Shown here: piece after piece, positions 4,490 through 26,502 of the stretch
Position numbering within the stretch: the first letter of the stretch is position 1
How the letters are laid out: each line of letters opens with the position of its first letter
Assembly (NCBI RefSeq): GCF_022867865.1
Contig: NZ_JALIEC010000005.1
Location: forward strand, 62,001-126,000
Length of the DNA stretch: 64,000 nucleotides
DNA from: Phaeobacter sp. J2-8
GTDB taxonomy: Bacteria > Pseudomonadota > Alphaproteobacteria > Rhodobacterales > Rhodobacteraceae
Direction of reading: 5' to 3'
Made by a program: the position numbers and the translations under genes
Notes under the pieces: model-generated
What the model was told of the DNA's origin: nothing
Databases searched by the model: none
Seen by the model: the letters and a program-made list of their open reading frames with translations, nothing else

Positions 4490-5211
4490 TCCGACACCTT
4501 TTTCATTGCGCTGGCAACATCGCGCACCACCACGGCATCCGGCAGCTTTGGCCGGTCGATCATGCCCACCCGAAGCCCCAGATTGCGCGCGGCCTGAAGC
4601 TTGGGCCAGCCGCCCGGCCCGCCGGCATTGCGCAGGATCACCCAATCAATCCGCAATTGCCGCAGCAGGGCCATTTCCTGTGCCACACCAAAGGGGGCCG
4701 CGCCCTTCAGGAACCGGCCCCGTGGCAGGGGAAAGACATCATTGTGGTCGCTGATCTGGCGGCAATAGATGTAACAGCCGTTGAGGCAGGCAAACCGTTT
4801 GAGCCCCTCGCGCCCGGTGCCCAGAAACACCCGCGCCCCCGGCGCCACATGATGGCGTGCATCCCTGTCGCGCCGCAAAGCCACCCAATGGTCCCGCCGC
4901 CCGGGACGCCAGGGCGCGCGTTCCAGCCGCAGCACCCTGATCCCGGCATCCCTGGCCGCCTCTGCCGCGATCTGCGATGCCCGCCAATCATTGGGATGTG
5001 AGGCATCAATCAAAAGCCGAATGCCGTGACCCAACCGCTCTGCCAGACCTGCGGCTGTGAAGGGCTGCGGTGCAACGGCAATCGGCCAGCTTCGCGGCAT
5101 GCGTTCCGGATCGGGCAAGATGACACTGGCCCGCCCCGTGATCCGCAACGCCATCGCGCGCGCTTCGGCAGCGCCGCCGATCAACAAGATATCTTTGCCA
5201 GCCCCAAACAT
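4477..5211 (-). CDS. cobK: precorrin-6A reductase
   Basis: The 244-residue protein matches CobK/CbiJ, which reduces precorrin-6A to precorrin-6B with NADPH in aerobic cobalamin synthesis. Recognisable segments are ILLIGGAAEARAMA at the N-terminal nucleotide-binding turn, LIDASHPNDW, FPLPRGRFLKGAAPF, and VILRNAGGPGGWPKLQAA near the end. No other corrin-ring gene is in the window, so this gene is separated from the main cob cluster. B12 demand is real here, since the ribonucleotide reductase at 41534 is the B12 type. The start at 5211 has no clear Shine-Dalgarno sequence. Confidence 0.85.
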   Translation of the reverse strand: MFGAGKDILLIGGAAEARAMALRITGRASVILPDPERMPRSWPIAVAPQPFTAAGLAERLGHGIRLLIDASHPNDWRASQIAAEAARDAGIRVLRLERAPWRPGRRDHWVALRRDRDARHHVAPGARVFLGTGREGLKRFACLNGCYIYCRQISDHNDVFPLPRGRFLKGAAPFGVAQEMALLRQLRIDWVILRNAGGPGGWPKLQAARNLGLRVGMIDRPKLPDAVVVRDVASAMKKVSEWLD

Positions 5212-5338
5212 GGCAAAGATCTAGCGCAGACCCGGCCAGCTTGCACCCCACTTATCGCGCCATTGCGACCAGATGCACACTGGGATGTGCAGGAATGTGG
5301 TCTTGCTGTCGCCGCGCGCCGTCTATACCGATTTCGCC

Positions 5339-6571
5339 ATGAGCGATACACTCCCCCACACCCCCGCCGCGCCGGACACCCGCGCCAAACGCAATGTATT
5401 TGTGTTGGTGTTGGCCCAGGCCATTCTTGGCGCACAGATGCCGATGATTTTCACCATTGGCGGCTTGGCGGGGCAATCGCTGGCGTCGAATTTGTGCTTT
5501 GCGACCCTGCCGATTTCGATGATCGTGATCGGATCAATGGTCACCGCGACGCCGATATCGGCCTTCATGCAGCGCCACGGCCGCCGCGCCGGTTTCTTTA
5601 TTGGCGCGCTTGGCGGGGCCCTGGGCGGGGTGATCGGGGCCTATGGTCTTTATCTGCAAAGCTTTCCGGTCTTTTTGATCGGCTCTTTCCTGACCGGGGT
5701 TTACATGTCAGCGCAGGGTTTTTACCGCTTTGCCGCCGCAGATACCGCCACGGATGATTTTCGCCCCAAGGCGATTTCCTATGTCATGGCCGGTGGTCTG
5801 GCCTCGGCGATCATTGGTCCGCAACTGGTGAAGATGACCGCCGATGCCTATGTGATCCCCTTCCTTGGCACCTATGCGGCGGTGATTGCGGTCAACCTTG
5901 TCGGGGCCTTGTTGTTCCTGTTCCTCGACATTCCCAAACCGCCGACACCTGCGGCCGATGCCCCCAAGGGGCGCAGCAAATGGCAGCTGATCACAACGCC
6001 GCGGATCGCCGTCGCGGTGATCTGTGCCATGGTGTCTTATGCGCTGATGAACCTTGTCATGACCTCGACACCGCTGGCGGTGGTTGGCTGTGGCTTTGAC
6101 AAGAATTATGCCGCCGATGTGGTGACCGGGCATGTGCTGGCGATGTTTGCACCGTCGTTTTTCACCGGCCACCTGATTGCCCGTTTCGGCGCGGAACGGA
6201 TTGTCGCCCTGGGATTGATGATATTGGCAGCGGCGGGTGGTGTCGCCCTTTCCGGTGTCGCGCTGGAGAATTTCTTTGTCGCCTTGATCCTGTTGGGACT
6301 TGGCTGGAATTTCGGCTTTATCGGTGCGACCACAATGTTGGCCAGCGCCCATGCCCCCGAAGAACGCGGTCGCATGCAGGGGATGAACGACCTGATCGTG
6401 TTTGGCGGTGTCTCGGTGGCGTCGCTTGCCTCTGGCGGATTGATGAATTGTTCCGGTGGCACGGCCCAGGCTGGCTGGACCGCGGTGAACCTGGCGATGG
6501 CGCCCTTCCTGTTGCTGGCGGGGGCGGCGCTGATCTGGCTGGTGATGCGGCCCAAAGCTGCTCCGGTTTGA
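5339..6571 (+). CDS. MFS transporter
   Basis: A 410-residue major facilitator protein with about twelve hydrophobic helices and a cytoplasmic charged loop in the middle (PPTPAADAPKGRSKW). The A-loop region between helices 2 and 3 reads MQRHGRRAGFFIGALGG. The start MSDTLPHTP at 5339 begins the conserved part; an earlier in-frame ATG at 5273 would add a non-conserved leader. The substrate cannot be read from the sequence. It is divergent from cobK, with a 127-bp gap that must hold both promoters. The closest families include riboflavin or small-acid exporters, but this is not resolved. Confidence 0.85.
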   Translation: MSDTLPHTPAAPDTRAKRNVFVLVLAQAILGAQMPMIFTIGGLAGQSLASNLCFATLPISMIVIGSMVTATPISAFMQRHGRRAGFFIGALGGALGGVIGAYGLYLQSFPVFLIGSFLTGVYMSAQGFYRFAAADTATDDFRPKAISYVMAGGLASAIIGPQLVKMTADAYVIPFLGTYAAVIAVNLVGALLFLFLDIPKPPTPAADAPKGRSKWQLITTPRIAVAVICAMVSYALMNLVMTSTPLAVVGCGFDKNYAADVVTGHVLAMFAPSFFTGHLIARFGAERIVALGLMILAAAGGVALSGVALENFFVALILLGLGWNFGFIGATTMLASAHAPEERGRMQGMNDLIVFGGVSVASLASGGLMNCSGGTAQAGWTAVNLAMAPFLLLAGAALIWLVMRPKAAPV

Positions 6572-22953: not shown

Positions 22954-23029
<76 letters not shown>

Positions 23030-23188: not shown

Positions 23189-23413
23189 ATGACACAGCTG
23201 ACAGAGACCACATCAACACAGCCCCGCACCATCCTGGCATCCACGGGGCGCGTTCTGTTGCGCGCCTTGATCAGATCGCTGCGCGCCCGGCAGACCCGCA
23301 AGGGGTTAGAGGCCTATCGCGGCAATCCGCATCTGGCCCGCGATATCGGCGTTCCAGCGGCACCAAGCCAGATTACAGCAAAGCTGCCCGCATCGACAAA
23401 GCCACTTTGGTAG
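23189..23413 (+). CDS. DUF1127 (YjiS-like) small protein
   Basis: A 74-residue basic protein with the DUF1127 core LLRALIRSLRARQTRKGLEAY and HLARDIGV. Members are Arg-rich and often induced by stress; some bind RNA or take part in phosphate and carbon control in alphaproteobacteria. AAGGAG lies about 10 nt before the ATG. It sits inside the tRNA-Val-bounded segment, converging on the caspase gene, with a palindrome in its promoter and a 20-bp hairpin after it. The C-terminal 20 residues are not conserved in style. Confidence 0.75.
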   Translation: MTQLTETTSTQPRTILASTGRVLLRALIRSLRARQTRKGLEAYRGNPHLARDIGVPAAPSQITAKLPASTKPLW

Positions 23414-23423
23414 GCCCTTTATC

Positions 23424-23478
23424 CAGCGGCGGGCATTGGGGCACGGGCGCACCCACCCTGCCCCAATGCCCGCCGCTG
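23424..23478. terminator. 20-bp perfect inverted repeat between convergent genes
   Basis: Arms at 23424-23443 and 23459-23478 are exact complements (outer ends CAGCGGCGGG / CCCGCCGCTG) around a 15-nt GC-rich loop. It lies 11 bp after the DUF1127 stop and 117 bp from the caspase-gene stop. There is no U-tract. It may be a terminator for both genes or a small mobile-element remnant. Confidence 0.55.
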
Positions 23479-23594
23479 CACCACGGGCCGATGCACATAT
23501 TTGCCTTACCCAGTCCTGAACAGCGACCGGAGCAGAAAAAAGCGCATTCGAAATACGGTGAAGATTTTGTTGTTTGAACGAACAACTGCCGCCC

Positions 23595-26276
23595 TCAGTC
23601 GAGACGGTGCCAATCAGCGATATTCCAAAGCATGCCAGCATAGGAATTCGCGACAACACCGCCCAGTGTGACAGAACGCGCCGCGACTTCGGCCCGTTGC
23701 ACAAGCGGGATGGAAACATGACCGCCAGCGCTGACCATATTGTCCAGGCGCTTGATAATCTCTTGGCGCTCGGAAAGCCCCCCAGTACGCCCGAGTTCTT
23801 TCAGCAATTTGTCAAATTCCGGGTCGCAATATCGCGTGATATTGTCCCCAAACCAGCCGTTGTCAGGCCGCGGCTCCGAACCACAACGGAAATTGTTCAG
23901 ATAGTCTTCCGGGTCCGCGCCAGCAAAGACGTTAGAATACATCTGCACGTCGGCATAAAACCTTAGATATGTATCTTCCGAATTGGAACCGCCGCCAAAG
24001 AACACCGTTGGCGCAATATTGCGTAGTTCGGTTTCGACGCCGATCTGGCGCCACCATTCCCTTATCAAGGCCTGGAAATCCTGGCGAACAGCATTGGTTG
24101 AGGTCTGAAACAGAATCGACAGGCGAACACCGTTCCTGGTCCGCACACCATCACTCCCCCGTATCCAGCCAGCCGCATCGAGTAGTCGGTTCGCACCATC
24201 GATGTCCTGAACCAGACAGTCAGTGGTGCCAGAGGCATAGACCTTCGGCGCGGGAATGAGATCGCAGGTGCTGCGACCCGAAACACCATAGCCGATTTCG
24301 GTCAGCAACTCGCGGTCGATCGCCATGGAAAGCGCCCTGCGAACGTCCCTTTGTGTCAGGGCGGGATGCGGAGCGTCGCGTGTTGAGCGTATATCAGGCG
24401 CGAGTTTCGGCGACGGATCGGTCAGGTTAAGCATCAACCGTTCCACCAGCGCACGAAACGCCACAACAGGCACGCCGCGCCCGCCTTCGGCCATCTGGTC
24501 CAGAACGTCCGGCGCAAGCTGCAGGTTCCAGGCGAAATCACTCTTGCCGGTCTCGAACACCGCAGTGGCAGCGCTTTGCGCATCACCGCCACCAACCAAG
24601 CTGATTGTCTCGAACGCCGGTTTTCGGGCCTCGCGGTAGTTGCGGTTTGCTTCAAACTCGATCCGGCGGGATGAGTAGTCCCGCACTACAAAAGGCCCTG
24701 TGCCGCGGGGGCGGAAATTCTGTGTGCACGACGGGGCCTTCGCCCCTTTACACGGCGCAAACTGAGATTTTTGAAGCACCGGCGAATTGGTACCGACAAA
24801 GGCGCGATAGGGATAGGCCGTCGGCTGCAAGAACCGAAAGCGCACGGACATTCGGTCGATCAACTCAACACTTTCAATTCCGCTGAACTGGTTGGATTGC
24901 GCACATCCGGTCCGGGCATCCATGCAATATGCGGCGGTAAAGGCCACGTCGTCGGCCGTGAGCGCCGTGCCGTCAGACCAGGTCACTCCATCCCGCAAAC
25001 GCCAGGTTATCGTTCGTAAATCTTCCGAGACCCCGCCATTTTCAAGCGTCGGAACTCTGTTCGCGAGGACCGGCAGGATATTGCCCTCAGGATCGAAGGA
25101 GGCCAGCGGCTCGAGCACAAGCGACGCGGCCTCTATATCCTTCGTCGAGCCAGAGAGATAAGGGTTGAGTATCGACGGCGCTTGCCAATAGGTGAGTGTT
25201 GCGGCCCCATCGGCACCGCGCCTTTGTGCCGTCGCGGGCGGCGATGGGCGGACCTTTTCGGGGTCTGGCTTCGGTGCGGGGGTTGGCGGGTCTGGCTCTG
25301 GCTCTGGCTCTGGCCGGGTCAATGCCACCAACCGTTTCTTGGCAATCCCCGCGGCAGGCGTGTCTGGGAAACCGGCGACGATACGTTCCAGCGCAAGAAT
25401 TTGCAGATCATCGGGCAGTCCAAACCCAAGGATAAGAAGCTTGTCTGCTTCTGCCGCCCGATCGGCGCTGCTGTTTGCCCCCGACACCCCGCATTGTCCG
25501 GCGATGCAGGTGAACCCTAACGCGGCATCATAATACGCAGGCTCTTGCAGATGCCCCCCAGCCCCGCGCGCCAGACGCGCAGTATCGACCTGCGCACGCG
25601 ACACGGCTTCTTCCAAGTGCAGACGTTGTTCGAGATATGGCAAAAAGCTACGGGTGAACACCGAAAGCTTTTGTTCCGGTGGATCGTCGGGTAGACGATC
25701 CAAGGCCTCCTGCCCCTCTCCGGCGGAATAAACGATAAAACTGCCGGTGCGCGGCGACAACGGTGCAAGCCCGCGCGTCATGCAGGCCGAACGCCGCCCT
25801 TCGGGCGGCTTGAACGGATTGTTGCGGCAAGCGTCGATGATCGCCACGGTCAGCCCAGTATTGCGCATCTCGATTTCGTCCAGGATGCCGTTCACCCCGT
25901 TTTTCAACGCAACGGTTTCGCGTTTCAGCTTGCGATCACTGCCTTGTGATGGCGCATCGGTCGGCACGAGGTAATTCACCTGCCCGTCCGACCAGCCATG
26001 ACCAGAAAAGACGACGATCACATCGTCGCCCGGTTCCAATCCGGCCAGAAAAGTATCGAAGGAGTTGAGCATGCCGTCGAGGTCACTGTCTTTCAACCGT
26101 GAAATTTGGTAACCAAACTCCCGAAACAGCGCGGCATATGCATCGGCATCTGAATGGGTGTTCCGCAGATCGGCCAAGGCCAGATACTCGGCGTTGGAGA
26201 CCACCAGCGCATGTTTTTCGGCGGCAGCGGGCACCGCAAAAACAAGCGTCAGAAGGCAGGCTGCGGCCAATCTCAT
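23595..26276 (-). CDS. secreted caspase (peptidase C14) fused to a family 5 ABC solute-binding protein
   Basis: An 893-residue protein in three parts. Residues 1-19 are a signal peptide ending VPAAA. Residues 20-260 are a caspase domain: KHALVVSNAEY, catalytic His93 in VVFSGHGWSDG, NYLVPTDAP and catalytic Cys150 in AIIDACRNNPF. A 260-320 helical segment and a Pro/Glu linker (321-352, RPEPEPEPDPPTPAP) follow. Residues about 355-893 are a peptide/nickel-type solute-binding domain (SBP_bac_5): LTYWQAPSILNPYLSG, WRLRDGVTWSDGTALTADDV, DVRRALSMAIDR and DPEFDKLLKE. The product is periplasmic by its signal. No permease or ATPase gene is adjacent. The ribosome site is weak. The combination is unusual; its role is unknown. 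Confidence 0.85.
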   Translation of the reverse strand: MRLAAACLLTLVFAVPAAAEKHALVVSNAEYLALADLRNTHSDADAYAALFREFGYQISRLKDSDLDGMLNSFDTFLAGLEPGDDVIVVFSGHGWSDGQVNYLVPTDAPSQGSDRKLKRETVALKNGVNGILDEIEMRNTGLTVAIIDACRNNPFKPPEGRRSACMTRGLAPLSPRTGSFIVYSAGEGQEALDRLPDDPPEQKLSVFTRSFLPYLEQRLHLEEAVSRAQVDTARLARGAGGHLQEPAYYDAALGFTCIAGQCGVSGANSSADRAAEADKLLILGFGLPDDLQILALERIVAGFPDTPAAGIAKKRLVALTRPEPEPEPDPPTPAPKPDPEKVRPSPPATAQRRGADGAATLTYWQAPSILNPYLSGSTKDIEAASLVLEPLASFDPEGNILPVLANRVPTLENGGVSEDLRTITWRLRDGVTWSDGTALTADDVAFTAAYCMDARTGCAQSNQFSGIESVELIDRMSVRFRFLQPTAYPYRAFVGTNSPVLQKSQFAPCKGAKAPSCTQNFRPRGTGPFVVRDYSSRRIEFEANRNYREARKPAFETISLVGGGDAQSAATAVFETGKSDFAWNLQLAPDVLDQMAEGGRGVPVVAFRALVERLMLNLTDPSPKLAPDIRSTRDAPHPALTQRDVRRALSMAIDRELLTEIGYGVSGRSTCDLIPAPKVYASGTTDCLVQDIDGANRLLDAAGWIRGSDGVRTRNGVRLSILFQTSTNAVRQDFQALIREWWRQIGVETELRNIAPTVFFGGGSNSEDTYLRFYADVQMYSNVFAGADPEDYLNNFRCGSEPRPDNGWFGDNITRYCDPEFDKLLKELGRTGGLSERQEIIKRLDNMVSAGGHVSIPLVQRAEVAARSVTLGGVVANSYAGMLWNIADWHRLD

Positions 26277-26427: not shown

Positions 26428-26502
26428 TGGTGGGTGATAAGAGATTTGAACTCCTGACATCTTCGATGTGAACGAAGCGCTCTACCACTGAGCTAATCAC
26501 CC
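26428..26502 (-). tRNA. tRNA-Val (anticodon CAC)
   Basis: The minus strand starts GGGTGATTAGCTCAG, with anticodon arm CTTCG-TTCACAT-CGAAG (anticodon CAC), T-loop TTCAAAT, acceptor ATCACCC, then A and an encoded CCA. The D-loop is one base shorter than in the tRNA-Val at 22954, and one T-stem pair is G-U. A T-rich stretch follows the 3' end. Confidence 0.92.

Follow-up and report, generated by a model that had tools for sequence, protein, structure and literature searches.

Two fusions of caspases with transporter solute-binding proteins in Phaeobacter sp. J2-8 suggest the reuse of uptake receptors as modules of secreted-looking proteases

Transport-type receptors are known to act as signalling input in the Venus-flytrap histidine kinases and in GlnH/GlnX-PknG. 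The ANF_receptor domain, which is found on a cyanobacterial caspase, also has a fold of the periplasmic-binding type. Prokaryotic caspases have many partner domains (Asplund-Samuelsson 2012, PMC3501461), and the main text of that source reports a single ANF_receptor-metacaspase from Cyanothece sp. PCC 7424 and a single CHASE2-metacaspase from Trichodesmium erythraeum, the latter suggested to be a membrane protein whose caspase lies in the cytoplasm. As far as this main text goes, these two proteins are the nearest precedent for the gene described here, since in each a bacterial caspase carries a ligand-binding domain of the extracellular type. However, they are single sequences, and no transporter solute-binding protein (SBP) is described in that text, in which the words 'SBP' and 'solute' are absent (PMC3501461). 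The word 'solute' is also absent from the available text of PMC6426788 and PMC4933709, and a caspase-SBP fusion was not found described among the matches listed from titles and abstract openings of the open-licence literature. Here, such a fusion is reported from the marine bacterium Phaeobacter sp. J2-8, encoded on the minus strand at positions 23595 to 26276 of the window, which is the whole analysed stretch of 64,000 nucleotides (contig NZ_JALIEC010000005.1, positions 62,001 to 126,000). Whereas the output of binding-protein-fed signalling systems is a kinase across the membrane, the fusion joins its receptor to a protease in the same chain. Our main reading, with a probability of roughly 55 %, is that a receptor of an ATP-binding cassette (ABC) transporter was recruited as the ligand-binding module of a predicted extracytoplasmic protease with a paracaspase fold.

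The gene runs from an ATG at 26276 to 23595 over 893 codons with zero internal stops, and the open frame around it, which comprises 906 codons, is also stop-free inside. A sequence-only reading had divided this frame into a signal peptide, a caspase with both catalytic residues, a Pro/Glu linker and a family 5 SBP of full length. All of these parts were recovered. Both Pfam matches lie far above their gathering cut-offs, with Peptidase_C14 at residues 21-233 (E=1.1e-19, 71.6 bits, cut-off 21.4) and SBP_bac_5 at residues 415-798 (E=1.3e-53, 182.9 bits, cut-off 32.4). The latter is nearly complete, as it covers profile positions 11-362 of 368. In the label 'peptide-type' of the sequence-only reading, 'peptide' is simply the usual annotation of this SBP family. 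The N terminus, MRLAAACLLTLVFAVPAAA-EK, resembles a type I signal peptide as judged by eye, and the linker between connector and SBP domain reads RPEPEPEPDPPTPAPKPDPEKVRPSPPATAQ. His93, Cys150 and the pair Cys257/Cys262 are invariant in an 11-row and a 34-row caspase alignment, whose rows were selected by the authors from the fetched loci. The parts of the gene are as follows:

23595..26276, minus strand: whole gene, an 893-aa secreted-looking caspase/SBP_bac_5 fusion (P0001), from the frame and Pfam
26217..26276, minus strand: residues 1-20, signal-peptide-like N terminus with likely cleavage after AVPAAA, by eye; the aligned caspases also start hydrophobic
25578..26216, minus strand: residues 21-233, caspase (Peptidase_C14) domain, from Pfam, model and fold match
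25998..26000, minus strand: codon of the catalytic His93 (SGHG), invariant in both alignments
25827..25829, minus strand: codon of the catalytic Cys150 (DACRNNP), invariant in both alignments
25491..25508, minus strand: Cys257...Cys262 pair, invariant across the aligned caspases, a possible disulfide
25314..25487, minus strand: residues 264-321, three-helix connector, modelled with moderate confidence and common with the relative L107 to about residue 300
25236..25313, minus strand: residues 322-347, Pro/Glu linker, from sequence, whose final residues align with the end of the signal peptide of the free-standing SBP
23598..25241, minus strand: residues 346-893, SBP_bac_5 domain in full length, orthologous to a free-standing ABC receptor, from Pfam and sequence comparison

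A second caspase-SBP fusion, with another SBP family, was found in the same genome. It is encoded by a 693-aa gene on contig C11 (L038:7004-9085), in which caspase, linker and SBP are arranged as in the first fusion, and the two caspases are 49 % identical. Its SBP belongs to the polyamine-type family SBP_bac_8 (residues 370-644, E=2.2e-46). The nearest entry in the PDB is the spermidine/putrescine-binding protein 8jv1 (E=2.7e-61), and receptors used in γ-aminobutyric acid (GABA)-sensor constructs are also near; a literature search on 8jv1-8jv4 found only unrelated papers. In comparisons with either half of the fusions, third codon positions vary 1.7-3.3 times as often as first and second positions. 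This excess and the second gene of the same layout elsewhere in the genome exclude chance or a missed stop for practical purposes, and the caspase-SBP_bac_5 fusion is confirmed as real and not a stray fusion. Judged by their sequences, the two genes would represent two parallel conversions of transporter receptors into secreted-looking caspase modules in one genome, which we consider real and not ordinary.

No other genome searched showed a caspase-SBP_bac_5 fusion. No orthologous fusion was found among the matches listed for 198 family genomes or in three genus mates, and 0 of 210 matching plasmid records cover 80 % of the fusion query. A candidate third SBP fusion, L120 (the same as L088:3276-3644 of genome G082), was rejected, as it has an incomplete tail resembling DctP of tripartite ATP-independent periplasmic (TRAP) transporters (phmmer E=0.0077 against 4x04) and no Pfam match. 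This tail, the only SBP-like one noticed among the tails read, is possibly a decayed third SBP capture.

The origin of the first SBP half can be traced to a free-standing receptor. It is 59 % identical over 550 residues to the receptor of genome G105 (L045:8852-10621), which adjoins two permeases and a double ATPase, and 55 % identical to a receptor of Primorskyibacter aestuariivivens (L044:8905-10680). Matches to the fusion protein at E<=1e-30 occur in 152 of the 198 family genomes, and those listed mainly cover residues ~346-893. All three sampled genus mates have a free-standing orthologue in a block of pntB, DUF3422, YeeE, permease C, permease B, SBP, ATPase and M20 peptidase. In the host genome this block is contiguous (L204), yet YeeE is followed by M20 without the permeases, SBP and ATPase in between. 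Elsewhere in the host genome, the best match to one cognate permease, that of G105, reaches only 38 %, and the best match to the cognate ATPase 54 %, compared to 81-90 % among the genus mates. The absence of an ABC operon stated in the sequence-only reading is supported: no ABC genes were found among the nearest neighbours of the fusion gene, and the cognate operon is missing from its conserved site. No other close copy of either SBP was found in the host genome.

For the second SBP half, identity to the free-standing receptors of the three genus mates is 65-68 %. In each of these genomes, ATPase, SBP, two permeases and exoA follow one another (domains confirmed by Pfam in G099 and G198); in G099, a DUF1330-like open reading frame follows the polyamine-type SBP. 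The host genome has the caspase-SBP gene, a DUF1330 gene and exoA at this site, so that the second fusion sits where the genus mates have their transporter. No ATPase or permease matches were found near it in the 16 kb examined. The best match to its permease elsewhere in the genome is 50 % over about half the length, compared to 80-81 % among the genus mates, and it lies on contig C12 beside a 36 % SBP paralogue, which is the only other match of the host to the second SBP.

In both fusions the junction falls at about the end of the receptor's own signal peptide, with signal peptides judged by eye. Export would now depend on the signal peptide of the caspase, because the junctions replace those of the SBPs. 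The first fusion has the whole mature domain in common with the free-standing SBP_bac_5 receptors. Unlike an ABC-importer receptor, however, which is a free-standing protein with its own signal peptide and cognate permease and ATPase genes in an operon, it has neither and is joined to a caspase. In phylogenetic trees, both fused SBPs form long outside branches, and their grouping with the genus mates is neither rejected nor shown (approximately unbiased test, p 0.30 and 0.22). Both tree samples lean towards close relatives due to the way the sequences were picked: 29 of the 32 free-standing sequences in the SBP_bac_5 tree are best-scoring loci of the search in the family genomes, and the 14 sequences of the SBP_bac_8 tree are the standalone loci from the search for the second SBP.

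Selection on the halves was assessed with NG86 ratios of nonsynonymous to synonymous divergence (dN/dS). The caspase half gave 0.25/1.69 against L107 (~0.15), the first SBP half 0.34/1.96 against G105 (~0.17) and 0.41/2.41 against G099, and the second SBP half 0.25/1.93 against G099 (~0.13); these ratios are rough since synonymous sites are near saturation. At the level of sequence comparison, both halves are shown to be under purifying selection. The first fused SBP keeps 156 of 174 positions that are invariant in 32 free-standing orthologues, and the second 143 of 167 (14 orthologues), corresponding to 86-90 %. If positions conserved in 90 % are counted as well, the first fusion retains 238 of 290. 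All invariant Trp and Cys are kept in both. Charged residues are over-represented among the lost invariant positions (8/36 and 9/39, compared to 1/29 and 0/26 for aromatic residues and Cys; Fisher p 0.036 and 0.009), and this bias is not significant in the free-standing sequences. It would fit the loss of a transporter-docking surface. Residue 785 is Ala in the fusion and Asp in 26 of the 32 free-standing orthologues. An Asp near this position in DppA and OppA holds the amino end of the peptide, and the ligand may differ because of the exchange. In our reading, the fused SBPs are under altered but real constraint, with fold and core kept and the surface and perhaps the specificity changed.

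The nearest solved caspases to the caspase half are MALT1 paracaspases (best E 7e-8), and human MALT1 is nearest by both sequence and fold at ~20 % identity. MALT1 differs from the fusion in being cytosolic and in having Ig and death-domain partners. The AlphaFold model of residues 20-260, based on an alignment of 33 relatives from a contig scan without SBP rows, has predicted local distance difference test (pLDDT) values of mostly 83-98 and is weak at residues 151-170. In a Foldseek search, it matched the caspase domain of human MALT1 (3v4o) with a template modelling (TM) score of 0.79 by target length and a root-mean-square deviation of 5.1 over 259 columns, in agreement with a caspase fold. 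The connector is modelled as helices at residues 270-284, 289-302 and 307-320 with moderate confidence. In the full-chain model, the caspase is good and the connector moderate, whereas the SBP half is mostly below pLDDT 50; a fixed arrangement of caspase and SBP is unlikely because of the Pro/Glu linker. Cys257 and Cys262, both invariant, may form a disulfide, as would be expected in an oxidising compartment. The score against the EACC1-associated caspase model (NF047832) is 25.2 bits, below the cut-off of 140. With the PADLOC models of anti-phage caspase systems, only weak partial matches were obtained (E=0.0018 and 0.00056).

The sequence-only reading had called bacterial caspases usually cytoplasmic or joined to TPR, WD40, Sel1 or sensor domains. 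In this group, an export signal is no exception: all 11 aligned caspases start with a hydrophobic N terminus, and the C-terminal modules are numerous and swappable. Of 394 family genomes, 33 have a match to the caspase half at E<=1e-30. Its C-terminal partners include Sel1 with or without PG_binding_1, F5/8-type NADase_transloc, WD40, beta-helix, PDZ, FGE-sulfatase or nothing recognised by Pfam. This survey covers 80 of 187 relatives (77 loci) in the contig scan. Pfam domains were searched in 10 proteins from the initial set and in 9 of the 77 loci, and the other tails were read by eye, long ones partly, so that a weak SBP tail could have gone unnoticed. The tails of L130, L183, L114 and L123 are missing or incomplete, L121 contains a run of N, and those of L126 and L132 were read from L089 and L093.

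The closest relatives among the 77 loci are mostly Rhodobacterales by title, with Roseibium, Nevskia and Limnohabitans lower down. L107, from a Rhodobacteraceae metagenome genome, has the closest caspase half, with 71 % identity over residues 21-300 followed by WD40 repeats. This switch after residue ~300 indicates that the caspase and at least part of the connector form a unit taking various modules. In the aligned rows, the secreted-looking caspases, mainly of Rhodobacterales (such as L107, L112, L087 and L093), have the intact dyad and the same cysteine pair as the fusion. With its conserved caspase, its hydrophobic N terminus (signal peptide by eye) and Cys257/Cys262, the fusion is, by sequence, a member of this mainly Rhodobacterales group of predicted secreted caspases with swappable C-terminal modules. 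It thereby stays within the multidomain bacterial caspases. What is new is the transporter receptor as a module: the tails of its relatives are repeat or binding domains, whereas its own tail is a complete ABC-transporter receptor.

Several observations concern other caspase genes. Secreted-looking caspases form arrays in G082 (L087) and G307 (L091/L092), with a different C-terminal tail on each gene, resembling a cassette-exchange locus. The host genome has 13 Peptidase_C14 matches in total, two of which are halves of one broken gene. This paralogue (L039 ~4883-5655; G000 C11:684882-685654) is split over two frames, probably because the gene is disrupted or the sequence contains an error, and three further caspase genes are clustered at L041 (G000 C1:990712-995860). 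Within the window, a caspase fragment of 70 residues on the minus strand at 2770-2973 aligns with residues 61-130 of the fusion at 42 % identity. It sits in a 111-codon open frame and is apparently a pseudogene remnant.

An L,D-transpeptidase-like gene is located farther out from the fusion gene, whose nearest features are typA and two tRNA-Val genes:

26428..26502, minus strand: tRNA-Val (CAC), directly upstream of the fusion gene
22954..23029, minus strand: tRNA-Val (TAC), downstream of the fusion gene

The genus mates keep typA, alaS and recA, and their 13-kb stretches of this region are without the fusion gene or tRNA-Val, so that the fusion gene must have been inserted or moved. A mobile island at the tRNA genes was considered and rejected, as the only direct repeats of at least 16 nt are the paralogous tRNA-Val copies themselves, and no mobile element was found at the locus. 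A 34-nt inverted repeat with 85 % complementarity lies downstream of the fusion gene (window 23413-23489) and is possibly a terminator.

The recruitment of a transporter receptor as the ligand-binding module of a protease would proceed as follows. The caspase and connector would form a secreted protease head of general use that gains its binding modules by domain exchange, and the SBPs would be two of these modules. After Sec export, the SBP would bind its solute in the periplasm, and binding, by closure of the two lobes or by dimerisation, may either switch the caspase or concentrate it near the solute or its carrier. The cleavage of envelope or neighbouring-cell proteins would thereby become solute-dependent. 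Bacterial caspases cleave after Arg or Lys at P1, and MALT1-type caspases are activated by dimerisation. Because the linker is flexible, placement or dimerisation driven by the ligand is more likely than rigid allostery. As a hypothesis, the ligand-based gating or targeting put forward in the sequence-only reading fits what is predicted from the two genes.

Several points weigh against this interpretation. Export, ligand binding, proteolysis and gating are all predictions from sequence. The terminal branches of the fused SBPs are long (1.87 and 0.98, compared to a median of 0.16), and in a leave-one-out comparison every free-standing SBP keeps more invariant positions than they do (lowest 94 % and 96 %), which is compatible with partial relaxation. 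With Ala at residue 785, the ligand may have changed or been lost. The modules of the related caspases are mostly repeats or wall-binding domains, suggesting tethering over ligand gating. Since the caspase-SBP_bac_5 fusion occurs in no other genome searched, cross-species conservation offers no support, and some polyamine-type uptake may remain because a distant SBP and permease lie side by side on contig C12.

A less probable, although serious, explanation is that the SBP is a tether only. It would bring a secreted caspase that is always active to wall fragments, an oligosaccharide or a protein partner, without any switching. The tails of the relatives (Sel1 with PG_binding_1, WD40, beta-helix, PDZ and F5/8-type) favour it, as those with Sel1, peptidoglycan-binding or WD40 domains are probably tethers, and the long Pro/Glu linker speaks against tight allosteric coupling. 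However, the capture of two different small-molecule receptors, with the cognate transporter genes missing both times, would be an odd route to mere tethers. The same loss makes it improbable that the caspase cuts extracytoplasmic proteins and the SBP passes the products to other peptide transporters. Although the genome contains 24 matches to permeases of that class (E<=0.001), the cognate permeases and ATPase are gone, and the polyamine-type SBP of the second fusion fits no peptide hand-over.

Slightly less improbable, but still unlikely, is that the fusions are relics, i.e. chance products of operon decay in which the SBP half drifts and only the caspase matters. Such drift would agree with the long branches and with the fact that some invariant residues have been lost, with charged residues affected more often than aromatic residues or Cys. 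Against it, the 548 codons of one SBP half and the 348 of the other are free of stops at an amino-acid divergence of 32-45 %, dN/dS is 0.13-0.17, and 86-90 % of the invariant positions and all invariant Trp and Cys are retained. An assembly or frameshift artefact that joined two genes is the most improbable explanation. The host genome is a draft of 17 contigs with 95.5 % completeness, but a second fusion of the same layout exists at another locus, the junction replaces the SBP signal peptide in both fusions and the frame is free of stops.

The recruitment reading could be extended, as a tentative and rather doubtful possibility, to two uptake systems that were dismantled while only their receptors were kept as ligand sensors of secreted caspases, so that a solute, or a toxic mimic that formerly entered through the transporter, would trigger proteolysis and not uptake. 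If true, this would be an integrated-decoy arrangement as in plant immune receptors, with a ligand-gated protease that consists of a single chain, needs no kinase and acts outside the inner membrane.

The inputs and targets of bacterial caspases are mostly open. The free-standing orthologues of the receptor suit standard solute screens, which makes the activating signal of this caspase directly testable. The two parallel cases, one of them at the old transporter site, show how an uptake receptor may become a signalling module: transporter genes are lost, the mature receptor is joined to an effector, and its branch becomes longer while the residues that determine the fold are kept. The fusions thus suggest that uptake receptors are being given a new use, in which they direct a protease beyond the cell membrane or switch its activity.

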